Notes under the pieces: generated by a model
The model's database searches: none
Seen by the model: only the letters and a program-made list of their open reading frames with translations
What the model was told of the DNA's origin: nothing
DNA from: Kineococcus xinjiangensis
Lineage (GTDB): Bacteria; Actinomycetota; Actinomycetes; Actinomycetales; Kineococcaceae
Assembly (NCBI RefSeq): GCF_002934625.1
Contig: NZ_PTJD01000001.1
Coordinates: forward strand, 509,041 to 573,040
DNA length: 64,000 nucleotides
Direction: 5' to 3'
Program-made: the position numbers and the translations under genes
Shown here: piece after piece, positions 31,482 to 55,330 of the stretch
Layout of the letters: every line of letters begins with the position of its first letter
Numbering within the stretch: position 1 is the stretch's first letter

Positions 31482-32149
31482 CAGAACCTCTCCTCCACGA
31501 CCCGGCCCGCGTCGCACGGGGTCTGCTCGTCCACGACGTCCGCGACGAGCCAGGTGCCCTGCACCAGCTCCACGTCGGCGTACCCACCGCTGTGGTGGGG
31601 GGAGTTCACGGGGCGGCCGGTTCCGCGGTCCACCTGCCACCCGCGGACCTGCATGCAGAAGCTCACCCTGGCCGCGGCCGGGGACGGACGGCTCACGTCG
31701 AGGACGCCCATCGGGTAGGGGCCCGGCATGAGGTCGCCGAAGTTGGCGCGCAGCAGCGGCAGCGCCCAGTCCTGCGCCGCCGGGGTCAGCGTGGCGCGGA
31801 AGACCGCGGCCGTCGGGTCCTGGGCGTTGGCGGCGCGGGCCTGCTCACGCAGGTACGCCCGCAGCGCCTCCACCGCCGGGTCGTCCGCACCGGGCGCCGC
31901 GGGCCCGGCCTGCACGGCGGGCCCGCTCGAACCCGCCGCCGTCGCCGGAGCCGTCGCCGGGGCGGCCACGACCCCCTCCGCGGCCGACGGCGGCGCGACC
32001 GGCCCCGCCGCCCTGTCGGGGGCCACGGGAGGACGCACGTCGGGTGCCGAACCGGCGCACCCGGCGGAGGCGCCCGCCAGGAACCCCAGCAGCACCCACC
32101 TCGTCAGCCGGGCCGGAACCCGCAACCCGCTCACCGTCCTCGTCCTCAC
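31481..32149 (-). CDS. Lipoprotein of the tad locus
   Basis: A 222-residue lipoprotein. The signal peptide TRWVLLGFLAGASAGC (residues ~16-31) ends in a good lipobox (SAGC). A low-complexity Ala/Pro linker reaches ~85. The C-terminal domain (90-222) has a helical start and a beta-rich end, reminiscent of small NTF2-like or DUF-type periplasmic domains, with Cys at ~165 and ~212. Function unknown; the coupling to tadG suggests a pilus-assembly accessory. GTG 32149 overlaps the tadG stop (GTGA). Confidence 0.75.
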   Translation of the reverse strand: MRTRTVSGLRVPARLTRWVLLGFLAGASAGCAGSAPDVRPPVAPDRAAGPVAPPSAAEGVVAAPATAPATAAGSSGPAVQAGPAAPGADDPAVEALRAYLREQARAANAQDPTAAVFRATLTPAAQDWALPLLRANFGDLMPGPYPMGVLDVSRPSPAAARVSFCMQVRGWQVDRGTGRPVNSPHHSGGYADVELVQGTWLVADVVDEQTPCDAGRVVEERF

Positions 32150-32628
32150 TGCACGTCCGTCTCGTCGAGGCCCTGGTAGGGCCTGGCCTTGGCCTCGCCC
32201 GCGGCGGCGAGCTCGCGGACGCCCGCGATGCCCAGCAGTCCCGCCGGGATGGCCGTCTCCACCCGCGCAACCACCACCAGCCGCCGCACCGGGGCCTCCT
32301 TCGTGTCCTCCAGGCCCTGGAAGCAGTTCCCGGGGTTGCGGATCGGTGCACCCGCCGCGGCGGCGTCGAGGCAGTAGCGGTTCACCCGCTCCGCCACGAC
32401 GTCGCTGGGGAGCAGTTCCAGCTCCTCCACCTCCAGGTTCACCGCGGCGGCCCCGGCGCGGGCGGCCTCCTCGGCGTAGGCGGTGGCACGCGCCCGGGCG
32501 TTGAGCTGCCGAGACCCGTCGATGACCAGCCCCGCCAGCAGGAGCACCACGAGCGCCAGCAGCGGCACCACGGGAGCGATGGAACCGCGGTCGTCCCCCA
32601 CCCGCCGGCGAGGCGGCACGCCGCTCAC
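32146..32628 (-). CDS. tadG: TadG-like pilus assembly protein
   Basis: A 160-residue protein starting with a short basic stretch and a GSIAPVVPLLALVVLLLAGLVIDGSRQ membrane segment (residues ~14-40) of the TadG N-terminal type, then an extracytoplasmic domain with two Cys (~84 and ~99). Minor pseudopilin-like proteins of this kind are needed for Flp pilus assembly. It is shorter than canonical TadG, which carries a von Willebrand-type domain. GTG 32628 overlaps the previous stop (GTGA). Confidence 0.8.
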   Translation of the reverse strand: MSGVPPRRRVGDDRGSIAPVVPLLALVVLLLAGLVIDGSRQLNARARATAYAEEAARAGAAAVNLEVEELELLPSDVVAERVNRYCLDAAAAGAPIRNPGNCFQGLEDTKEAPVRRLVVVARVETAIPAGLLGIAGVRELAAAGEAKARPYQGLDETDVQ

Positions 32629-33047
32629 TGCACGACCCGGTTCGGGTCGAGCGGGCTGGCGAACGTGCTGCGCGCCGTCAGCGAACCGGGCATCCCCGGC
32701 AGGCCGAGGTCGGAGACGGGGTACGTGCAGGACGCGGTGACGGTGACGGGCCGGCCCGGCTCGAACACCGCGATCGGCTCCACCCGCAGGCTGTCGCGGC
32801 AGTGCACGGACACGGTCGCGACGGCGGCGGCCAGCACGCGCTCGGCCCGCTGCTGGGCCTGCACCGGCGACCGGGCCTGCGTGGCGGCGCGCGCGGCGTC
32901 GCGGACCCCTGCGTCGAACGCACCGTCGACACCGGTGACCCGCCCCGCCGCGAGCAGGAACAGCAGCAGGAGCACCAGCCCCGGCGCCAGCATGGACAGC
33001 TCCAGGGAGAGGCTGCCCTCGTCCCGGCGCGACGTGCTCCCGCTCAC
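32625..33047 (-). CDS. TadE-like minor pilin (second copy)
   Basis: A 140-residue TadE-family protein. The pilin-like N-terminus GSLSLELSMLAPGLVLLLLF (residues ~11-30) carries the conserved Glu after a Leu/Ser stretch, and two Cys lie near 84 and 107 in the extracytoplasmic part. It is likely processed by a prepilin peptidase, which is not in this window. It is coupled to its neighbours on both sides by GTGA overlaps. Confidence 0.82.
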   Translation of the reverse strand: MSGSTSRRDEGSLSLELSMLAPGLVLLLLFLLAAGRVTGVDGAFDAGVRDAARAATQARSPVQAQQRAERVLAAAVATVSVHCRDSLRVEPIAVFEPGRPVTVTASCTYPVSDLGLPGMPGSLTARSTFASPLDPNRVVQ

Positions 33048-33484
33048 AGCTCCGCCCTCTCGAACCGCTCGACCTCACCGAACGCCTGCTGCGTCGTCGT
33101 CAGCGCCAGACCGGGCACGAGGGAGACGACGCGACCGGTGACCGTCACGGACACCCGCGCGTTGCCGTCGGCCTCCACCACCCAGCTGGAGGCGACCCGC
33201 GGCTCGAGCAACGACTCGCCGCCGAGCGTCGATGCGTAGCGGAGCACCCGGTCCTCCACGCGTGGGCGCTCACCGGCGGCCTGCGCCGCGTCGTCGATCA
33301 CCCGCAACTGCGAGACGCCCTCCCGGGCGGCCTGCAGGGCCACGTTGCGCCCGTGGAACCACAGGCCCACCTGGACGGTCGTGAACACGAGGAGGAGCAG
33401 CGCCGGGGCCACGAACGCCAGCTCCAGCGCCGTCGTGCCCTCGTCGCCCTCGCGCGCTCCCCGCCGCGGACCGCGCCCGCTCAG
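33044..33484 (-). CDS. tadE: TadE-like minor pilin (first copy), probable CTG start
   Basis: A 146-residue TadE-family protein: GDEGTTALELAFVAPALLLL is the processed pilin-like segment with the conserved Glu, near residue 16-35, then a soluble domain ending in FGEVERF. No ATG, GTG or TTG stands before the pilin motif in this frame except far inside flp. The only codon that fits is CTG 33484, overlapping the flp stop as CTGA, in a locus where all other junctions are GTGA or ATGA. The start is therefore inferred, not certain. Confidence 0.8.
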   Translation of the reverse strand: MSGRGPRRGAREGDEGTTALELAFVAPALLLLVFTTVQVGLWFHGRNVALQAAREGVSQLRVIDDAAQAAGERPRVEDRVLRYASTLGGESLLEPRVASSWVVEADGNARVSVTVTGRVVSLVPGLALTTTQQAFGEVERFERAEL

Positions 33485-33741
33485 ACCGCGCAGGTCGTGT
33501 TGACCGGCTGGTTCGCGCAGGTCTCCAGCTTGGTGCTCTTGGCCTTCACCACGCCGTACAGCGCGCCGCCGATCACGGAGGCCGCCACCACGACGATCGC
33601 CGCGATGATGGCCCACTCCAGCGCGGAGGCCCCCAGGTCCACCTCGCCCCGCGCCCGTGCCGCGCGGGCCCGCTGCCGGGCCGCCTGCAGGGTCCTGCCG
33701 AGGAACCGGACGGGGAACTGCGACGGGAAGTGCGTGCTCAT
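33481..33741 (-). CDS. flp: Flp-type major pilin
   Basis: An 86-residue Flp/Fap pilin. A basic leader (residues 1-34) precedes the cleavage-type region GASALEWAIIAAIVVVAAS (37-55), where the Glu at the fifth position of the mature helix is conserved. The tail holds a possible disulfide (ETCANQPVNTTC). It polymerises into the Tad pilus after export by TadA/B/C. AGGAGG lies 7 nt before ATG 33741. A 147-bp spacer upstream may carry its own promoter for high pilin expression. Confidence 0.9.
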   Translation of the reverse strand: MSTHFPSQFPVRFLGRTLQAARQRARAARARGEVDLGASALEWAIIAAIVVVAASVIGGALYGVVKAKSTKLETCANQPVNTTCAV

Positions 33742-33888
33742 GCTGTGCCTCCTGGGCGTCGTGGCCCGCGCCGGGTCGGCGCGTGCCCTGTGGGGAACGG
33801 GTGGTCTGGAACGGCAGCCGCAGCCAGCGGAACCGGTGCGGCGCAGCGCTGGTGCGGTGCGGCGCGGAGGAGGCGCCGGGCACGGCCC

Positions 33889-34815
33889 TCACCCCTGCGC
33901 CAGGAGGCCGTCGACGGCCGGGTAGGCGAGGAAGAGCAAGAACGCGCAGCACAGCAGCATCTGCGCGACGAGCATCGACTGCGAGCGCTCCCCCGCCTGC
34001 CCCTCGGAGTCCGACATCTCCCGCCGGCGCATCGTCGCCGAGCGCGCGCTCAGCGAGGAGCGGATCTTCGCGCCGTCGTCGGCGGCCAGGGTCAGCGCGC
34101 CGGCGAGGTCCTCCAGCTCCTCCACGCCGATGTCGCGACCGAGGTCGCCCAGGGCCTCCCACGGCGTGGTGCCCATCAGCCGGGCGTTCGCCAGGGACTG
34201 CCGGATGCGCACCAGCGCCCAGTAGTCGCTCACGCTCGCCGACGCCAGCAGGGCCTCGGGCAGGCCCCGGCCACCGGCGAGGTTCATCGCCACCAGGTCG
34301 AGGAACACCCCCACCACGCGGCGGAAGTCGCGGCGGCGCTGCTCCGCCTCGCCGCGCAGCGCCAGGTCCGGCAGGAACGCCCCGAGCGCGCCGAGGACCA
34401 GGCCGAGGACGAGCGGGACCGCAGCCGGCAGCGGAACCCCGGAGACGCGCAGCGCGGCCCAGCAGAACGGCACCAGCAGGAACAGCCCCACCCCCGCCAG
34501 CAGCTTCGTCGCCAGGAACGAGCCGAGGGAGCGGTTGACCAGCGCCAGGTCCCGGCGGGTCCGGTGCAGCTGCCAGCCGCGCTCGGCGGCCTGCACCTCC
34601 AGGAGGTCGGCGAGCCGGTCCATCCCCGCGCGGGCACCGCCGCCCAGCCCGGCGACGGCCTGGACCTCGCTGAGCGTCTCGCCCCGCAGGGACCGGCGGC
34701 CGGCGTCGATGCGCGAGACCAGCACCGCGACGTTGGTCCGCTGCGGCAGCAGGAGCCGGGCGAGCAGGAACAGCCCCGCCCCGACGACGGCACCGCACAG
34801 CACGGCGAGCGTCAT
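33889..34815 (-). CDS. tadC: TadC-type inner-membrane platform protein (T2SS GspF domain)
   Basis: A 308-residue polytopic protein. Hydrophobic segments lie at the N-terminus (1-22), near 95-120, 122-142 and at the C-terminus (~285-303). The cytoplasmic GspF-like part between includes FLDLVAMNLAGGRGLPEALL near 163-182, which is characteristic. It forms the assembly platform with TadB in the cytoplasmic membrane. ATG 34815 overlaps the tadB stop (ATGA). Confidence 0.88.
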   Translation of the reverse strand: MTLAVLCGAVVGAGLFLLARLLLPQRTNVAVLVSRIDAGRRSLRGETLSEVQAVAGLGGGARAGMDRLADLLEVQAAERGWQLHRTRRDLALVNRSLGSFLATKLLAGVGLFLLVPFCWAALRVSGVPLPAAVPLVLGLVLGALGAFLPDLALRGEAEQRRRDFRRVVGVFLDLVAMNLAGGRGLPEALLASASVSDYWALVRIRQSLANARLMGTTPWEALGDLGRDIGVEELEDLAGALTLAADDGAKIRSSLSARSATMRRREMSDSEGQAGERSQSMLVAQMLLCCAFLLFLAYPAVDGLLAQG

Positions 34816-35747
34816 GCCCCCGCCTCCACCGGTGCGCGCATCCCCTGCGGGAGCAGCGCCCCGGCGGCCCCGGCCAGGAACCGCTCGGTGCGCGGCGGCG
34901 CGGAGAGGCGGCGCAGCCACCACACCCCGGCCACGAGCAGCAGAGCGACGACGGCCAGGACGAGCTGGCCCGTGAGGCCGGCGTAGGGCGCGACGTAGGC
35001 GCCGTTGAACACGGCGAGACCCCCCATGACCCCGAGGACGATGAGCAGGACGATCCGCACGCTGCGGCGGATGCTGCGCCGCGACGCCTCCACCCGCCGG
35101 CGCATGTCCAGCTCCTCGCGGGTCGAGACCGCGAGCGCCGTCAGCACGTCGCGCAGCCCCGGTCCGCGCAGCCGCGCGTTGAGCACCAGGGCGGCGCAGA
35201 CGACGTCCGCGCTGGGGTCGTCGACGTCGTCGGCGAACGCCAGCAGCGCCTCGGGCAGCGGCTCGCGGATGCGCAGCCGGTCCACGAGGAGGTTCAGCGA
35301 CGGGCGCAGCGCCGGGGCCGCGGTGGGCGCGGTGGCGGGGATCGCCTGCTCCAGCCCCACCGCTCCGGCGATGGTGTCGCGCAGGGACTCCGTCCAGCTG
35401 GCGAGCGCCTCCAGCCGCGCGATGCCGCGGCCCTCGTCGGCGCCGCCGCCGAGCAGCTTGTCCCAGCTCGCCGCGAGCAGCGCGAGGCCGACCCCGGCGA
35501 CGACCCAGCGCGTGAGGACGAGGGCGAGGAGGCCGACGACGAGCGCGCGCACCCAGCGCCGCCGCCACGGCGTTCCGGAGCCGCTGCGGCGCAGCAGCGA
35601 CGGGCGCGCGGCGTCGCGCCGGGGCACGCCGGTCGCCGCGAGCACCGCGACGAGGACCCCGGCGCCGGCGAGGGCACCGGGCACGACGGCGAGCAGTTCC
35701 GCCGGGACCGGCAGCCCCGCGGGCAGCAGAGCGGAGGCGGAACTCAC
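34812..35747 (-). CDS. tadB: TadB-type inner-membrane platform protein (T2SS GspF domain)
   Basis: A 311-residue membrane protein with hydrophobic segments near 15-40, 67-92, 225-245 and 250-275 and the GspF-type motif ALASWTESLRDTIAGAVGLEQAI near 115-138. It pairs with TadC as the pilus platform. GTG 35747 overlaps the tadA stop (GTGA) and is preferred over the in-frame GTG at 35756 for that reason. Confidence 0.88.
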   Translation of the reverse strand: MSSASALLPAGLPVPAELLAVVPGALAGAGVLVAVLAATGVPRRDAARPSLLRRSGSGTPWRRRWVRALVVGLLALVLTRWVVAGVGLALLAASWDKLLGGGADEGRGIARLEALASWTESLRDTIAGAVGLEQAIPATAPTAAPALRPSLNLLVDRLRIREPLPEALLAFADDVDDPSADVVCAALVLNARLRGPGLRDVLTALAVSTREELDMRRRVEASRRSIRRSVRIVLLIVLGVMGGLAVFNGAYVAPYAGLTGQLVLAVVALLLVAGVWWLRRLSAPPRTERFLAGAAGALLPQGMRAPVEAGA

Positions 35748-37054
35748 TGGGACCACCGGGCGACGAGCGGCGCCTCGTAGCCGTGCGCGGCGAGCTCGTC
35801 CGCGCAGCTGATCGGGGCGTGCGCCCGCGCGACGCCGTCGGCGGCCAGGGCGAACACCTCCGTCGACAGCACCCGGCCGTCGATGCCGGTGACCTCCCGC
35901 ACGCTCTCCACCCGCCGGCGGATCGAGCCGTCGGGGGCGGAGCCCTTGCGCAGGAACACGACGAAGTCGATGGCGCCCGCGATGAGCATGTGCGTCGCCT
36001 CCACCGGCAGGTGCTCCTCCGCCTGCAGCGCGTAGGTCGCGATGCGGTTGAACACCTCCATCGAGGAGTTCGCGTGGATGGTGGACAGCGAGCCGTCATT
36101 GCCCTGGCTCATCGCGTTGAGCATGGTGACGATCTCGTCGCCGAGCACCTCGCCCACGATGACCCGGCTGGGGTTCATGCGCAGCGACCTGCGGACGAGC
36201 TCGGCCATGGTGACCGACCCCACGCCCTCCGAGTTCGGCAGGCGCTCCTCGAACGCGATGACGTTGGGGTGCAGCTCCGTGAACTGGTCGAGGCCGAGCT
36301 CCAGCGCCCGCTCGACGGTGATGAGGCGCTCGGCCGGGGCGATCTCGTTGGCCAGCGCGCGGAGCAGCGTCGTCTTCCCCGAGTTGGTGGAACCGGCGAC
36401 CATGATGTTCTTGCGGGCCCGCACTGCCGCACGCAGGAACTCGGCGAGGTCCTCCGTCATGGTGCGCCGGGCCACCAGGTCGTCGAGCCCGACGGCACCC
36501 AGCCGCGAGCGGCGGATGCTCAGGGCAGGCCGCTGGCAGACGCCCATCACGGCGGACAGGCGGGAGCCGTCGGGCAGGCGCAGGTCGAGCTGCGGGTTGG
36601 CGGTGTCGAAGGGCCGGCTGGTCAGGCCGACGTTCGCGGCGAGCACCTGCACCAGTTCCACCAGGTCCTCGTCGCTGTCGGCGACCGGCCCGTGGAACTC
36701 CTCCCGGCCGTCGCCGTAGCTGACGAAGACGCGGTCGCAGCCGTTGATGTCGATGTTCTCGACGTCGGGGTCCTCCAGCAGCGGCTGCAGGCGGCCCACG
36801 CCGAACAGGGCGGCGTTGACGGCAGCCGCCAGCGCCTCCTCCTCCGTGGCCGTCGGCGGGGTGCGGCCCGCGTCGATCTCCGCGCGGGCGTGGTCCTCCA
36901 GCACCTGCACGACCAGGGAGCGGGCGAACTGCCGCTCGTCCTCGGCGCTCATCGGGGCGTGCCCGACGACCTCGCGGCGACGGCGGTGGACGTTGAGGCG
37001 CTCGGCGACGGAGGTGCGCAGGCGGCGCACCAGCACGTGGTCGGTGGTGGTCAT
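35744..37054 (-). CDS. tadA: TadA/CpaF secretion ATPase
   Basis: A 436-residue hexameric type II/IV secretion ATPase that powers Flp pilus assembly at the cytoplasmic membrane. The N-terminal domain runs to ~150 (VENIDINGCDRVFV near 98). Walker A AGSTNSGKTTLL is at ~220-231, the Asp box is ITVERALELGLD, Walker B is SRVIVGEVLGDE near 295, and the His box is GSLSTIHANSS near 320. The usual E-D-x-x-E form of the Asp box reads ERALEL, as in actinobacterial homologues. ATG 37054 overlaps the MinD-like stop (ATGA). Confidence 0.93.
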   Translation of the reverse strand: MTTTDHVLVRRLRTSVAERLNVHRRRREVVGHAPMSAEDERQFARSLVVQVLEDHARAEIDAGRTPPTATEEEALAAAVNAALFGVGRLQPLLEDPDVENIDINGCDRVFVSYGDGREEFHGPVADSDEDLVELVQVLAANVGLTSRPFDTANPQLDLRLPDGSRLSAVMGVCQRPALSIRRSRLGAVGLDDLVARRTMTEDLAEFLRAAVRARKNIMVAGSTNSGKTTLLRALANEIAPAERLITVERALELGLDQFTELHPNVIAFEERLPNSEGVGSVTMAELVRRSLRMNPSRVIVGEVLGDEIVTMLNAMSQGNDGSLSTIHANSSMEVFNRIATYALQAEEHLPVEATHMLIAGAIDFVVFLRKGSAPDGSIRRRVESVREVTGIDGRVLSTEVFALAADGVARAHAPISCADELAAHGYEAPLVARWSQ

Positions 37055-37908
37055 CGGGAACCTCCGGCGGCGAGGAGCGCAGCGTCGGCCGCGGGAGCCA
37101 CCGCGGGCGCGACGGCGCGCCGCTGGGGGCCGGCGGCGAGGGCCGCGAGGGCCGCGACGACCGGCCGCGCGGAGCGGACGAGGAGCGTGCGTTCCGGCCG
37201 GCGGACCGCGGCACCGTCGAAGACCGCCGCGCCCCGGGCGTCGAGCGCGAGGCAGCCGAGGTCCACGGCGCCCTCGGCCGCCCGCCGGATCGTGGCGACC
37301 GCCCCGGGCAGCGCCGGGACCTCGGTGGGTCCGGCCACGGCGAGCAGCGCCAGGTGCGGGCCGGTGCCGCCGCGCGGTCGCAGCACGGGCGCCAGGGCGC
37401 GCAGCCGCTCCCGGGCCTGCACCACCCCGGAGACGCTGGGGCGGAAGACCAGCACCACCACGTCGGAGAGCAGGAGCAGGTCCAGGTGCTCCGAGCGGGT
37501 GGAGACGCGGCCCGCGTCGGCGACCACGGAGCGGCGCACGGCACCCGCGGCCGGGGAGGCGAGGTCCGCGCAGGCGCGGGCCAGGACCGGCCACGACGCC
37601 GAGGCCGCCAGCGCCTGCTCCGGTCCCGGCACCCCGCACAGCAGGTCCGTGCCGCCCGCGGCGGTCTGGGCCTGCTGCAGCAGCGCGTCGGCCCGCAGGC
37701 CGCGGCGCGCCGACGTCAGCAGCGGCAGCACGCCCCGCTCCTGGTCCAGGGGGCGCCCGTCGGCCCCGGGCAGGCGCAGGGCGAGGTCACCGCCGTCGGT
37801 GTCGGCGTCGACGAGCAGGACGGGACCGGGCCACAGCGCGGCGAGGAGGGCCGCGCTGGTGGTCACCCCCGGGGAGCCCTTGGCGGAGCACAGGGTCACG
37901 AGGCTCAC
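37051..37908 (-). CDS. CpaE/MinD-like protein with modified P-loop
   Basis: A 285-residue ParA/MinD-superfamily protein of the type encoded in actinobacterial tad loci, expected to position the pilus machine. The N-terminal loop reads SAKGSPGVTTSA where ParA has KGGxGKTT, so the Walker Lys is Val while the signature Lys is kept. The switch region LLVDADTDGGDLA follows near 31-43, and RSVVADAGRV near 125. ATP hydrolysis may be absent. This sequence change is, as I recall, common to the subfamily. GTG 37908 is 5 nt after the cpaB stop. Confidence 0.78.
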   Translation of the reverse strand: MSLVTLCSAKGSPGVTTSAALLAALWPGPVLLVDADTDGGDLALRLPGADGRPLDQERGVLPLLTSARRGLRADALLQQAQTAAGGTDLLCGVPGPEQALAASASWPVLARACADLASPAAGAVRRSVVADAGRVSTRSEHLDLLLLSDVVVLVFRPSVSGVVQARERLRALAPVLRPRGGTGPHLALLAVAGPTEVPALPGAVATIRRAAEGAVDLGCLALDARGAAVFDGAAVRRPERTLLVRSARPVVAALAALAAGPQRRAVAPAVAPAADAALLAAGGSR

Positions 37909-37913
37909 GGCGC

Positions 37914-38630
37914 TCAGCCCCGGACGAAGTCGATGGCGGGCACGGTGGACTCCGCGAGCTCCGCGAGGGCGATCTGCCCGGCGGCCGCGGCGGAGACGAC
38001 GTCGCCGGAGCCGGCGGCGGGGACGAGCAGCGACACCGACGCGTTCTCGGCGCCCGTGGCGGCGGAGGCGGAGACGACGCGGGCGGCCTCGAGCAGGACC
38101 TGCCCGGGCGAACCCGCGACCGCGCTCGCCGCGTCGCCCTTCACCACGAGGTACACGCGCACGACGTCACCGGTCTGGAGCTGCTCCGCGGGCCGCTGGG
38201 TGGGGCCGAGGACGGTGCCCACGACGACCGCGTCACCCGGCACGACCCCGCCGGCGAGGAACATCGTGCGGTTCACGAGCGTCCCCGCCGGGATGCGCCC
38301 GGTGGCGTGGGTGCCGACGAAGTTCTCCCGCGCGGCGGCCGGGACGACACCGGCCCCGTCGGTGGCGACCCGCTCGACGCCGAAGTCCTCGGCCGTGATG
38401 CGCTGCCCGGCCTCGATGGTGTGGCGGGCGACGAGCACGTCGACCCGGTCGCCGCTGCGGTGCACCACGAGTGCGCTGCCCAGCCCGCCGCCGACGACGA
38501 GCAGCGCCGCCAGCGCGGCGAGCGCCGGCCGGCGGTCCCGCACGGGGGCCGGCGGGCGGCGCAGCGGCACGGCGGTAGGCATCGCGGCGGGCCCCGCAGT
38601 GGGTGCGACGAGGCTGGACGGGCGCGGCAT
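37914..38630 (-). CDS. cpaB: CpaB/RcpC-type SAF-domain pilus protein
   Basis: A 238-residue protein with one N-terminal membrane helix (PALAALAALLVVGGGLGSALVV, ~35-56), a SAF domain (VLVARHTIEAGQRITAEDFG near 66-85, ASGRIPAGTLVNR-type segment near 110) and a second beta-rich domain. RcpC/CpaB proteins sit at the pilus base on the outer face of the membrane. It is the first gene of the tad operon. ATG 38630 follows GGGAGAG by a normal distance. Confidence 0.85.
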   Translation of the reverse strand: MPRPSSLVAPTAGPAAMPTAVPLRRPPAPVRDRRPALAALAALLVVGGGLGSALVVHRSGDRVDVLVARHTIEAGQRITAEDFGVERVATDGAGVVPAAARENFVGTHATGRIPAGTLVNRTMFLAGGVVPGDAVVVGTVLGPTQRPAEQLQTGDVVRVYLVVKGDAASAVAGSPGQVLLEAARVVSASAATGAENASVSLLVPAAGSGDVVSAAAAGQIALAELAESTVPAIDFVRG

Positions 38631-38706
38631 GCACTCTCCCGGGTCGGACGGGACGGACGGTGGCGAGGGGGTGCCGAGCACGGCGCGGAGGCCGGGGCAC
38701 ACGTCG

Positions 38707-38735: not shown

Positions 38736-38892
38736 CGCTGCGCGTGTGCGGTTGCGCCGAGAGGGGGGCTCCGTCCGCCCGATGGGAGCAACGCAGAGTG
38801 ACGACCCGCCGGGCCACCACCGGCTGGTGATCGCGCAGAGTCGCCGCGGCCGCGGAGTGCACGGATCGGGCGGCTCGCACGTCTGTAGGGGT

Positions 38893-39411
38893 GTGACCTT
38901 CGAAGAGTTCGCCACGGCGCGGTTGCCGGAGCTGCTGCGCTACGCGGCCGCGCTCACGGGCGACCGCGACCTGGCCCAGGACGTGGTCCAGGAGGTGCTG
39001 GCCCGGGCGCAGCTGCGCTGGCGCAGCGTCTGCGCCGCCGAGTCCCCCGAGCGCTACGTCCGCCGCATGGTCGTCAACGAGTACCTGTCCTGGCGGCGGC
39101 GCTGGTCGGTGCGCAACATCTCCTTCGTGGGCGACCGGCTGGCCGACGTGGGCGACCGGGCACCCGGTGGCCGCGACTTCGCCCGTGACCACGCCCTGCG
39201 CGACGACCTGTGGCAGCGGCTCACCCGGCTGCCGCGCAAGCAGCGCGCCGTCCTGGTGCTGCGCTACTACGAGGGCTGCGACGACGAGGAGATCGCCGAG
39301 GTCCTGCAGTGCGCCACCGCCACCGTCCGCAGCCATGCCGCGCGGGCGCTGAGGTCCCTGCGGGCGGCTCCCGAGCCCCTGCCCCGACTGACCGTGGGAG
39401 AGATCCGATGA
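38893..39411 (+). CDS. ECF sigma factor (SigE-like family of streptomycetes)
   Basis: A 172-residue extracytoplasmic-function sigma factor. Region 2 starts at TFEEFATARLPELLRYAAAL and contains DLAQDVVQEVLARA near 34-47. Region 4 has LPRKQRAVLVLRYYEGCDDEEIAEVL near 117-142 and the recognition helix TATVRSHAARALRSL near 147-160. It would direct RNA polymerase to a small regulon. Its stop overlaps the start of the repeat protein (ATGA), so the two are co-translated and the repeat protein is the likely partner. GTG 38893 has GTAGGGGT upstream, a poor ribosome binding site. Confidence 0.9.
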   Translation: MTFEEFATARLPELLRYAAALTGDRDLAQDVVQEVLARAQLRWRSVCAAESPERYVRRMVVNEYLSWRRRWSVRNISFVGDRLADVGDRAPGGRDFARDHALRDDLWQRLTRLPRKQRAVLVLRYYEGCDDEEIAEVLQCATATVRSHAARALRSLRAAPEPLPRLTVGEIR

Positions 39412-40646
39412 ACGACCTGGAGCGACGGCTGCGGACGGCGTTCGCGGCGCAGGAGGACCTGGCTCCCGACGCCGACAGCGTGCTCGCCGGTGTGGAGGCC
39501 GCCGTGGCCCGGCACCGACGTCGCCGCCGTGCCGTCCGCGCCGGGGGCGCCGCCGTCGCGGCGGGTGCCACCGCGGCCTTCCTGCTCACCGCCGACGGCG
39601 AGGGGTTCGGCTGGGACCGCACGGCCGTGCAGCAGCAGACGGCGAGCGGCGACCCGGCGCGGTCGGCCGCCTCGGAGCAGGAGGCCGCCCGGGCCTTCTC
39701 CGATGCGGGCTACACCTACGACGACGCCGTGCACCTGTCGGGCCTGTGGCAGACGGCGCAGCCGTGGGACGCCAAGGTGGAGGGCGGCCACAAGCTCCTG
39801 GAGGGGCGGACCCTGCCCATCACCCCGGGCACGGCCCCGTCCGCGCAGAGCCCCGACGAGCAGGCGCTGAACGCCTATGTCGGCGCCGGCTACGACTGGG
39901 ACGACGCGGCGGCGCTGGCCCTGCACTGGGGCCTCGACGACCCCTCGGACGCGAAGGTGAGGGCGGGGCGGCTCCTCCTCGACGGCGGCACCGTCCCGGT
40001 CGAGCCGGGCAGCGCACCGCCCGCGGCGGAGGGCAGTCCCGGTCCGGGTGATCCCGGTGACGGCGCGGTCGCCGACCCCGCGAACCAGCGCGCATGGGAG
40101 GCGTACGAGCGCGCTGGCTACGACTACACCGACGCCCACCACCTGGCGGCGCTGTGGGTGGGCGAGGTCGCTCCCCGCACCGGCGAGCTGCTCTCCGACG
40201 TCAAGGCCGTGGCCGGGGACGAGCTGCTCGCGGGCAACCGGCTGCCGGTGGAGAGCGGCCGTCCCGCCGACGCCCTGGACCTGCCCGCCGGCGCCCTGGA
40301 GCGGTTCCTGGACGAGGGCTACACCTCCGGGGACGCGGCGGAGCTGGCGCAGCGCTGGGGCATCGGGGACACGGCCTCCGCCAAGGCCGTCGCCGGGCTC
40401 AAGCTGGCCGCGGGCACAGGGCTGCCGTTCCCGGCCGGCAGCTTCGAGGCCCCCGCGTCGGAGCCGGCCCCGGACGCCGCCGGGGAGCAGGCCCTCGACG
40501 CCTACTTCGGCGCCGGCTACGGCTACGACCAGGCCGTGGAGCTGTCGCAGCTGTGGAAGGTCGAGGACATCCTCGAAGTCAAGATCACCGCAGGGAAGAA
40601 GCTGCTGGCGGGCGAGCGGCTGCCCGTGCAGCCGACGCGGGGCTGA
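39408..40646 (+). CDS. Membrane-anchored protein with five ~50-residue tandem repeats; candidate anti-sigma factor
   Basis: A 412-residue protein of no family I know. Residues 1-35 are a charged cytoplasmic segment (NDLERRLRTAF and a later Arg run), 42-60 one membrane helix, and the rest outside. Five repeats at about 91-140, 152-200, 229-283, 296-345 and 361-409 share the pattern A[YF]xx[AE]GYxxxDAxxLxxxWxxxDxxxxK, then AGxKLLxGxxLPxxPG. Linkers between are Pro/Gly/Ala-rich. No zinc anti-sigma (HxxxCxxC) motif is present. Co-translation with the sigma factor and the topology suggest a sensor or anti-sigma factor whose repeats act at the wall. The repeats also carry Lys in every copy, a possible amidoligase target. 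Confidence 0.8.
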   Translation: MNDLERRLRTAFAAQEDLAPDADSVLAGVEAAVARHRRRRRAVRAGGAAVAAGATAAFLLTADGEGFGWDRTAVQQQTASGDPARSAASEQEAARAFSDAGYTYDDAVHLSGLWQTAQPWDAKVEGGHKLLEGRTLPITPGTAPSAQSPDEQALNAYVGAGYDWDDAAALALHWGLDDPSDAKVRAGRLLLDGGTVPVEPGSAPPAAEGSPGPGDPGDGAVADPANQRAWEAYERAGYDYTDAHHLAALWVGEVAPRTGELLSDVKAVAGDELLAGNRLPVESGRPADALDLPAGALERFLDEGYTSGDAAELAQRWGIGDTASAKAVAGLKLAAGTGLPFPAGSFEAPASEPAPDAAGEQALDAYFGAGYGYDQAVELSQLWKVEDILEVKITAGKKLLAGERLPVQPTRG

Positions 40647-40650
40647 GGCC

Positions 40651-41742
40651 GTGACACTGCTGCCCGCCGCCGGCGCGCCCGGGCAGGACTCCCCCGTCCT
40701 GACCGGGCGCGTCGGCGTCGAGGTCGAGCTGCTCGCCCCGCGCGGCTCCAGCCGGGCGGTGCTGGCCGCCGAGCTCGCACGCCGCTGCGGCGGCACGGTG
40801 GAGCCCACCTTCCACGCCGACGCCGAACCGTCCCTCGTGCCCGGCATGGGGCGGTTCCTGCACCTGACGCGGGGCTTCTGCGTGCGCGACCGCGACGGCG
40901 CCCCCGTGTGCACGCTCGTCGACGACATCACCCTCCGGGCCGACCTGGATCCCTCGGCCCGCCCGCAGCCCGGCTGGTACCGCATCCTCAGCGACGACGC
41001 ACGGCTGCTCCGGCTCGTCTCGCGGCACGCCGACCCCGCGGCGGACCTCGCCACCGTGCTGGAGCCGGTGGCCGCGCTCTTCGGCGCTCGGGTCGAGGAG
41101 CACGGGGCGGTGCGCCGGCTCAACGACACCGCCGGAGCGACCGTGGCGCTGGCGGCACCCGCGCCCGGGGAGCGGGAGCGCCCCTGCGAGGTCGTGACGC
41201 CGCCGCTGGCCGCGCGGCACCTCGACCGGCTGGAGGAACTGCTCGCCCCCGCCCGCAACCTCGGCTTCACGGTGCCGCAGGAGGCTGCCGTCCACCTCCA
41301 CCTCGACGGCGGCCCCTACCGGGAGGTGTCCGCCTTCCGCAACGTCGTGCGGCTGTTCGCGCTGTGGCGGGAGCCGCTGCGGCGGGCGCTGGCCACGAAC
41401 CCCGCCTGCACCCGGCTGCGGCCCCTGCCCGCCGCGCTGGTGGACCTCGTCGAGCAGCCGTGGCGCGGCGACTGGCCCGCCCTGCAGCGGGCGGCGCTGG
41501 GGACGGGGCTGACGAAGTTCTTCGACGTCAACCTCACCAAGCTGCTCACGGACCGCCCCGACCGCGACACCCTGGAGGTGCGCATCCTGCCCGGGGCCCT
41601 GCACGGCGCGGACATCGTGGCGCGTGCGGCGCTGGTGGAGGCCCTGCTGCGCCGCTGCCGGCGGCCGGAGGTCCTGCCCGCCCCCACCACCGCGTCTCCT
41701 GCTGCGGCGCAGGCGGAACTGCTGGCGCTGGCGGCGACCTGA
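40651..41742 (+). CDS. Amidoligase family enzyme (Amidoligase_2, glutamine-synthetase-like fold)
   Basis: A 363-residue member of the predicted amidoligase enzymes. The hallmark GVEVEL opens the domain near residue 19 (metal/nucleotide Glu), VHLHLDGGPYRE follows near 215-226, and FFDVNLTKLL ... TLEVRILPG near 290-313 provides the late Asn and Arg. These GS-fold enzymes are predicted to join carboxylates to amines in peptides or peptidoglycan-like material using ATP; the substrate is unknown. It begins 4 nt after the repeat protein, so one transcript codes for sigma factor, repeat protein and ligase. There is no signal peptide. GTG 40651 has no strong ribosome binding site, consistent with translational coupling. 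Confidence 0.8.
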   Translation: MTLLPAAGAPGQDSPVLTGRVGVEVELLAPRGSSRAVLAAELARRCGGTVEPTFHADAEPSLVPGMGRFLHLTRGFCVRDRDGAPVCTLVDDITLRADLDPSARPQPGWYRILSDDARLLRLVSRHADPAADLATVLEPVAALFGARVEEHGAVRRLNDTAGATVALAAPAPGERERPCEVVTPPLAARHLDRLEELLAPARNLGFTVPQEAAVHLHLDGGPYREVSAFRNVVRLFALWREPLRRALATNPACTRLRPLPAALVDLVEQPWRGDWPALQRAALGTGLTKFFDVNLTKLLTDRPDRDTLEVRILPGALHGADIVARAALVEALLRRCRRPEVLPAPTTASPAAAQAELLALAAT

Positions 41743-54047: not shown

Positions 54048-54611
54048 TCACGGGCGGGGGTTCCCCTCCTGCCCGGAGCCGGCCGGTCCGGGGTCCGGGG
54101 TGCTCGAGGCCGGCTGGCTCCACCAGGTGAACTCGGCCACCGGGGGCAGCAGGCCGGGACCCTCCTCGGCGCCGCCCAGCAGCACGACACCGGCCAGGCC
54201 CGCCCCGACGAGTGAGAAGGCGCCCACCAGCATCGCGGCCAGGGGGCGGCGCCGCCTGCGCCCCGGCCCCGGATGCGCAGCGCGCCCGCGGGGGCGCCGG
54301 TTGACGTCCGACGCGCGCGGTGGAGCCACCACCGGGCGGCGCGGCGCACCGGCCATCGGCTGCTCGCGGGGACGCAGCGGCCCCACGGGCCCGCCGAGGC
54401 CGTGCAGGCGCTGGAGGAGGTCGTCGGAGGGCTCGGGGCCCAGCAGCGACTGCAGCCTGGCCTTCACCAGGCGCTCGGCCTCCACAGCGTCGGCACAGGC
54501 CGGGCAGTCGCGCACGTGTGCCTCCGCGCGCGCGGCGACGTCGGCGGGCAGCCTCCCGTCGACCAGTGCACTCACCCGCACACCGAGGTGGGGCCCGGAA
54601 CCGCTCTTCAC
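54048..54611 (-). CDS. rseA: RseA-type zinc anti-sigma factor
   Basis: A 187-residue membrane anti-sigma factor. The zinc anti-sigma motif [15 protein letters not shown] near 7-21 with [13 protein letters not shown] (His-x3-Cys-x2-Cys) near 33-45 binds the sigma factor. A basic, Pro-rich linker and one membrane helix ([24 protein letters not shown] near 128-151) follow, then a short outside tail. It should hold SigE inactive until envelope stress triggers its loss. GTG 54611 overlaps the sigE stop (GTGA). Confidence 0.9.
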
Positions 54612-55330
54612 CACGGCTGCTCCACCGCCGCCGCCGCACGGCCCGGGGCCCGGTGGGCGAGCACCTGGCGCAGCTGCGCCCGGCCGCGGTGGATGCGCGA
54701 GCGCACGGTGCCCAGCTTCACCCCGAGCGTGGCGGCGATCTCCTCGTAGCTGAGGCCCTCGATGTCGCAGAGCACGACCGCCGCGCGGAAGTCGGGCGCG
54801 AGCGAGTCCAGCGCCGCCTGCACGTCGTCGTCGAGGTTTCGGTGCTCGAAGGCGCGCTCCGGCCCGGCGTCGGTGGCCGGCAGGCGCTCGGCGGAGTCGT
54901 CGCCGAGGGAGTCGAAGCGGATCCGCTGCTTGCGGCGCACCTGGTCGAGGAACAGGTTGGTCGTGATGCGGTGCAGCCAGCCCTCGAACGTCCCGGGCGC
55001 GTAGCTGGAGAGCGAGCGGAAGACGCGGACGAAGACCTCCTGCGTCAGGTCCTCGGCGTCGTGCTGGTTGCCGGTGAGCCGGTACGCGAGGCGGTAGACG
55101 CGCGCGGAGTGGTCGCGCACGACCTCCTCCCACGTCGGGGGAACCCACGCGACGTCGGGGACCGTCGCCGTCGCGGCCACCGCAGCGGGCTCCACGACAT
55201 CCCCGCCGGCCTCCGCCACCTGGGCAGCCGGGGACGCGGCCGGGCCGTCCGGGCCACCGCGTTCGCGCACGGCTCTCCTCCTGCCGATGGCGGGGAAGGG
55301 CACCGGAAAGGGCACCGCCAACGAACCCAT
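54608..55330 (-). CDS. sigE: ECF sigma factor SigE
   Basis: A 240-residue ECF sigma factor for envelope stress. An N-terminal extension (1-65, Pro/Ala-rich) precedes region 2 ([37 protein letters not shown] near 92-108, [18 protein letters not shown] near 115-132) and region 4 ([43 protein letters not shown] near 195-217). It is co-translated with rseA and divergent from the O-methyltransferase gene, as in mycobacteria. ATG 55330. Confidence 0.93.

Follow-up and report, generated by a model that had tools for sequence, protein, structure and literature searches.

Here a three-gene unit was analysed in a window of 64,000 nucleotides (nt) from Kineococcus xinjiangensis (assembly GCF_002934625.1, contig NZ_PTJD01000001.1, positions 509,041 to 573,040 of the forward strand), "the window" denoting this whole stretch. 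The unit encodes an extracytoplasmic function (ECF) sigma factor, a five-repeat protein and a glutamine synthetase (GS)-fold amidoligase, abbreviated below as SIG, REP and LIG, respectively. The unit is, with high confidence, a conserved and probably self-regulated module, and the comparative data point to REP and LIG as its core with an exchangeable control part. All three genes lie in one direction on the + strand, the SIG stop and REP start overlapping in ATGA and a gap of 4 nt separating REP from LIG; this layout, proposed in an original prediction made from the sequence, was confirmed from sequence and Pfam searches. The same arrangement recurs across many genera and is therefore not due to chance. 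The features of the unit are as follows (window coordinates; aa, amino acids):

38858..38883, + strand: SIG-type promoter motif TGCAC-N17-CGTC, an exact match whose end lies 9 nt ahead of the SIG start codon
38893..39411, + strand: SIG, ECF sigma factor, 172 aa, GTG start (PF04542, PF08281/PF04545; TIGR02983 below cut-off)
39408..40646, + strand: REP, repeat protein of 412 aa, ATG start, without family match in Pfam/NCBIfam searches
39408..39533, + strand: REP residues 1-42, predicted cytoplasmic tail and proposed anti-sigma segment (model; N-terminal match outside the REP family; alignment)
39531..39587, + strand: probable membrane segment at REP residues 42-60, weaker here than in relatives (hydropathy)
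39690..39839, + strand: REP repeat 1, residues 95-144 (profile match; three helices in the model)
39867..40019, + strand: REP repeat 2, residues 154-204 (profile match; model)
40095..40259, + strand: REP repeat 3, residues 230-284 (profile match; model)
40296..40442, + strand: REP repeat 4, residues 297-345 (profile match; model)
40494..40637, + strand: REP repeat 5, residues 363-410 (profile match; model)
40651..41742, + strand: LIG, GS-fold amidoligase, PF12224, 363 aa, GTG start (Pfam; model; fold matches)

The distribution of the unit was analysed in two overlapping genome samples, 149 genomes of the order and a class-wide set of 394, giving 514 distinct genomes (handles G000 to G513); the searches score a limited number of candidates per genome, and absences hold at that sensitivity. 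With the window proteins as queries, LIG matched 15 and REP 16 of the 149 genomes of the order, the extra REP match being in G136, while a single-repeat profile matched 16 genomes, namely the 15 with LIG and, by one weak match, G038. In the class-wide sample, LIG was found in 5 genomes and the repeat in the same 5 and in G038. Without counting G136 (REP residues 2-79 only) and G038 (one repeat, E 5.5e-4) as REP-bearing, LIG was present in 19 of the 514 genomes, with five family codes among them, and the REP repeat in the same 19. The chance of such co-occurrence is about 5e-35 if genomes are taken as independent, their relatedness making the true figure larger. The PF12224 model found 14 of the 149 genomes and missed G106, which was recovered with the window LIG as query. 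Both LIG and REP were missing from G032, a fragmented genome of the neighbouring genus; the nine other members of that genus in the sample carry the unit. A plasmid search gave no match to REP or LIG.

Gene order was compared in 79 loci from named genomes, all actinobacterial, obtained from the best 80 of 148 relatives and chosen by LIG. REP was present in all 79 loci; in 77 it immediately precedes LIG, and one of the two exceptions is cut by a contig end. SIG was found in 61. The link between the three genes, which the original prediction had made one of its two touchstones, is thus conserved in homologous loci. The order was SIG-REP-LIG in 35 loci, REP-LIG-SIG-REP in 24, REP-LIG in 18, of which 3 are truncated at a contig end, and LIG-SIG-REP in 2, with exact 4-nt overlaps in 52 of 58 adjacent SIG-REP pairs, 24 of 25 LIG-SIG pairs and 26 of 65 REP-LIG pairs. 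On clustering of the neighbouring genes, the REP family covered 21 genus labels, LIG 19 and SIG 12, followed by families with 6 (25 widest families listed). When the three orders were mapped on a quick tree built from 80 LIG sequences, 4 changes were required (minimum 2; shuffled mean 33), and gene order therefore follows LIG history. The LIG of Kineococcus vitellinus grouped with Cellulomonadaceae sequences rather than with those of two other Kineococcus, which hints at a transfer. In Cellulomonas, Promicromonospora and Sanguibacter the roles of REP look divided between a copy with a signal-peptide-like start before LIG and a separate copy overlapping SIG; in Cellulomonas chitinilytica a third REP with its own signal-peptide-like start was observed downstream of the unit (L083:9499-10080). 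A literature search covering titles and the beginnings of abstracts returned no paper pointing to the combination of SIG, REP and LIG, a prior mention being possible.

Fifteen of the 79 units were intact yet had no SIG. Two-component genes followed LIG in place of SIG in eight of these 15: one histidine kinase/response regulator family stood directly after LIG in seven (Frigoribacterium 4, Agreia 2, Curtobacterium 1) and a different regulator-kinase pair in another Curtobacterium unit. Pfam domains, checked for one Frigoribacterium and for the Curtobacterium with the differing pair, indicated a LuxR-type regulator in the former and an OmpR-type regulator in the latter (kinase/regulator genes at L109:8193-10222 and L138:8299-10195), and no regulator was identified in the remaining seven intact SIG-less units. 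REP and LIG therefore appear to form the core, with SIG as the usual controller. Distant relatives of the Microbacteriaceae kinase/regulator were also observed about 3.5 kb downstream in Cellulomonas phragmiteti (L103:11568-13528), a genome in which the region before LIG gave no REP.

SIG contains sigma-70 regions 2 and 4 (PF04542, 29.1 bits, cut-off 24; PF08281, 56.3 bits, cut-off 25.7), and its nearest named subfamily is SigE-fam_strep (TIGR02983) at 139.4 bits, just below the curated cut-off of 141.55. A common motif, T(G/C)CAC-N17/18-CGT(C/T), was found in the regions before the first gene of SIG-bearing units. It was present in 24 of 36 SIG-REP-LIG units (window included) and in 21 of 23 REP-LIG-SIG-REP units (one contig being too short), with block-shuffle means below 1, a control that flatters the motif since it was derived from the very regions counted, many of them related. 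After one of the 24 sites, 283 nt away, had been dropped, the kept sites lay between 100 nt upstream and 60 nt downstream of the called start. The intact SIG-less units provide a better control than shuffling, and here the motif occurred at 44 of 59 SIG-bearing units vs none of 15; among all 18 REP-LIG units it was seen only in the 3 cut by a contig end, from Cellulomonas and Actinotalea, genera that otherwise carry SIG. On this comparison SIG probably drives transcription of its own unit, and with the motif ending 9 nt before the start codon in the window a leaderless SIG transcript is likely.

Further targets of SIG were sought by genome-wide motif counts. The strict motif gave 80 sites in the genome of the window vs 34 for a reversed control, a count that is mostly uninformative, and another strict form gave 41 sites vs 25 in ten unit-bearing genomes. 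By eye, 8 of these 41 belonged to the units themselves, and in the two remaining genomes this form missed the site of the unit; no wider SIG regulon was visible at this resolution in the ten genomes. Within the window, 94 sites were counted at up to one mismatch against 36 expected, an excess ascribed to coding composition. Two Cellulomonas genomes (L179 and L180; G518:C67:59229-59256 and G520:C5:385824-385851) have, at a distance from the unit, a second promoter-like site that is identical in both and is a possible further SIG target.

REP gave no match to Pfam and NCBIfam up to E 1. It contains no cysteine and hence no zinc anti-sigma motif (HxxxCxxC, the class I test), in agreement with the original prediction that the partner of the sigma factor lacks this motif. 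Ahead of its weak membrane segment, REP has a tail of about 42 residues, and the structure model places helices at residues 3-18 and 22-46, with residues 46-81 at low confidence. In this the model resembles class II anti-sigma factors, taken here as having a tail shorter than about 50 residues with two helices; CnrY, of this class, has two helices and a short tail according to PMC7406223. The N-terminal region of REP (residues 2-79) also matched a protein in G136, a genome without LIG, where it is encoded between two SIG relatives and joined to an unrelated ectodomain, and the tail therefore belongs to a wider set of sigma partners in which only the ectodomain is special to the unit. From this match beside SIG relatives and from the 4-nt overlaps, REP is, by indirect support, the partner of SIG; the tail of REP is a fair candidate anti-sigma segment on the model, and restraint of SIG by REP is likely. 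The proposal of a new type of anti-sigma factor was thus only partly right, because the tail is probably of the short, zinc-free, class II-like kind and not unique to this unit, while the ectodomain is new. The description of REP as a single-pass membrane protein with five repeats stands for the repeats, which the profile recovered, and less firmly for the membrane segment, which is weak in the window and clearer in relatives (hydropathy mostly 1.4-2.2 near the equivalent place in SIG-linked REP relatives). Among 43 REPs not preceded by SIG, 26 had RR within the first 40 residues, and only 8 fitted a stricter twin-arginine motif. At another locus (L046:6120-10365) two SigE-like sigma genes were observed, each overlapping the end of a gene for a large predicted membrane protein with another ectodomain type; one of the two membrane proteins shares its N-terminal region with REP.

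The conservation of the repeat was counted in 285 repeats of 118 distinct REPs, one column at a time being masked in the search model. W was kept in all 285, G in 282, Lys in 271 and Asp in 237 (Glu in 21), figures that lean upwards as the REPs were first gathered by a pattern requiring W, K and AG; with duplicate contigs included the values were 304, 301, 290 and 256 of 304 repeats for W, G, Lys and Asp, respectively. The near-invariant Lys fits a modification target but would also fit a structural residue. Foldseek and VIA-align searches gave no usable match for REP (best E 0.96; best Z 3.4) with the whole-protein model as query (predicted template modelling score, pTM, 0.34), so that a new fold does not follow from this result. 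Likenesses to UBA-like and CW_7-like domains were considered, and no analysis result supports them. PDB searches by sequence found no relatives of LIG, REP or the REP tail at useful E-values.

LIG matched PF12224 (Amidoligase_2) at 67.2 bits over residues 20-332 (gathering cut-off 22), and its structure model had a predicted local distance difference test (pLDDT) score of 93.9. In VIA-align, the 50 matches listed gave Z 10.8-11.8 and included YbdK, GS and the depupylase Dop, aligned over about 200 residues, so that the model shares the glutamine synthetase fold with these enzymes; the best Foldseek match had E 8.7e-4 with a template modelling (TM) score of only 0.30. In an alignment of 36 rows, E24 and E26 were nearly invariant and E180, E309 and R311 invariant, residues which we take to be of the GS type. 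On sequence and model, LIG looks enzymatically active. No export signal was seen in LIG by eye, no tool-based search having been made. A weak match to the PHROGs phage family "amidoligase enzyme" was also obtained (E 1.7e-4), and no assigned substrate for any PF12224 amidoligase was found in the literature consulted.

Taken together, these data suggest a self-regulated envelope module built on a tightly linked pair, a putatively cytoplasmic GS-fold amidoligase (LIG) and a predicted exported protein of tandem three-helix repeats (REP). The two-helix cytoplasmic tail of membrane-bound REP would bind and restrain SIG until an event at the REP ectodomain, for which cleavage and loss of a ligand are candidate triggers, would free it. 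SIG would then transcribe its own unit from the TGCAC-N17-CGTC promoter, a motif that is observed while its activity is presumed. LIG would activate a carboxylate with ATP and, before REP is exported, couple it to the repeats as an amide, most probably at the near-invariant Lys of each repeat in the manner of PafA. For this reading as a whole, in which LIG most likely modifies REP Lys, the chances appear about even. Modification of REP by LIG fits the strict co-occurrence and the conserved Lys and is the best single guess, a small-molecule product being its main rival. A more elaborate version, with LIG as a dedicated protein ligase on the repeat Lys, the anti-sigma ectodomain of REP carrying the same modification and SIG sensing the modification state, is rather unlikely.

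Several points weigh against the envelope module as set out here. The interaction, the modification and the promoter activity are all read from sequence and models, and the best 19-residue hydropathy of the window REP is only 1.5, at residue 42. The 15 intact units without SIG count here, as do the SIG-REP pairs without an adjacent LIG, though their genomes carry LIG elsewhere, and the 15 of 59 SIG-bearing units at which the motif was not seen, in some cases through misplaced starts. The flattering shuffle control and the upward lean of the repeat counts described above belong with these. Lys is absent from 14 repeats, 8 in Microbacteriaceae REPs beside LIG, 1 in Actinoplanes, 3 in SIG-REP loci without adjacent LIG (L041 and L047) and 2 in the second REP of L040, and is therefore not needed in every repeat. 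Lys may also have a structural role, as W is conserved in all 285 repeats and G in 282, and as Lys and this Gly are spaced by four residues in one helix.

The strict co-occurrence of REP and LIG is accounted for equally well by another reading, in which LIG would synthesise a small amide or short peptide in the cytoplasm and the repeats of REP would bind this product outside, non-covalently, as carrier or sensor. PF12224 is a general amidoligase family, GS-fold enzymes act mostly on small molecules, and the invariant W, G and P might together create a binding site. Against it, no exporter or biosynthetic gene recurring widely beside the unit was seen among the 25 widest families listed (others at most 6 genus labels), and the 4-nt REP-LIG overlap in 26 of 65 adjacent pairs also speaks against a small product, which we consider somewhat unlikely. 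The same neighbourhood listing, with no further widely recurring gene, speaks against a role in the cell wall, in which LIG would modify peptidoglycan precursors, REP would be a wall-binding reader or protector and SIG a wall-stress sigma factor. ECF units commonly respond to envelope stress, the hosts named are actinobacterial and the hydrophobic N-terminal segment of REP suggests export. The fold search, which has little power for domains as small as the repeats, found no wall-binding fold, and we consider this alternative unlikely. LIG might also close a lactam within each repeat by joining the conserved Asp to the conserved Lys, in the way ATP-grasp enzymes act on graspetides; this would draw on the conservation of both residues (Asp 237 and Glu 21, Lys 271, of 285 repeats) and on the occurrence of repeated substrate units in graspetides. 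In the model the two residues, Asp at the beginning of helix 2 and Lys close to the beginning of helix 3, are probably not in contact, and each repeat is predicted to fold as a domain of about 50 residues rather than being a short core peptide. We consider the lactam highly improbable.

Upstream of the unit, a run of tad-type pilus genes adjoins it on the - strand (32146-38648; CpaB-like, T2SSE ATPase and T2SSF by Pfam/NCBIfam, others by position). Control of the tad operon by the unit, which the original prediction had considered, was rejected: in six-frame open reading frames from the 79 named loci, five window tad proteins had no homologue (E 1e-3), and the - strand between 38649 and 38892, which faces tad, contained no SIG-type site at a 17-nt spacer and at most one mismatch. 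CpaB, TadZ, PepP and DUF6758 likewise had no homologue in 18 further stretches. Elsewhere in the window, on the - strand (54048-55330), a second ECF sigma factor with regions 2 and 4 by Pfam (54608-55330) is followed by a protein with a CPAC stretch (54048-54614), which looks zinc-finger-like; this pair provides an ordinary-looking contrast to the SIG-REP-LIG unit.

The pairing described here ties a PF12224 amidoligase to one undescribed repeat that was not seen without LIG in 514 genomes, so that its substrate becomes directly testable. If LIG modifies REP, the GS fold would have another protein-modifying branch in addition to pupylation, here with envelope proteins as substrates. The unit also represents an ECF group in which the promoter motif is clear, the sigma partner is zinc-free, the predicted targets are very local and the control part is exchangeable, and the REP-LIG pairing suggests an unstudied way to modify or sense something at the actinobacterial cell surface.

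Among known systems, the class II pair CnrH-CnrY resembles SIG-REP in that the gene after the sigma gene encodes a membrane partner, whose tail is short, zinc-free and predicted to form two helices, and in a likely self-regulated promoter, whereas the present unit has a tandem-repeat ectodomain found only in LIG-bearing sampled genomes, an amidoligase in the operon and, in 8 relatives, two-component genes in place of SIG. YbdK-type carboxylate-amine ligases are among the best structural matches of LIG (1r8g, YbdK, Z 11.6) but share 14% identity with it, YbdK being a small-molecule ligase; 1tt4, titled a predicted glutathione synthase, matched at Z 11.8. Graspetides offer a resemblance only, an amide-forming enzyme beside a substrate of repeated units, and differ in the ATP-grasp fold of the enzyme vs the GS fold of LIG and in that the repeats here are predicted three-helix domains on an exported protein. 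By curated score, LIG is a member of the Amidoligase_2 family PF12224 (Iyer et al. 2009). PafA, which has the GS fold, joins a carboxylate to protein Lys according to PMC3511204, and protein Lys is therefore a known kind of target for this fold. LIG shares the fold with PafA and Dop (Dop: Z 11.3, 205 aligned residues, 3.4 A) and differs from the pupylation enzymes in belonging to PF12224, in having no widely recurring tag gene beside it and in its partner, a predicted exported repeat protein.

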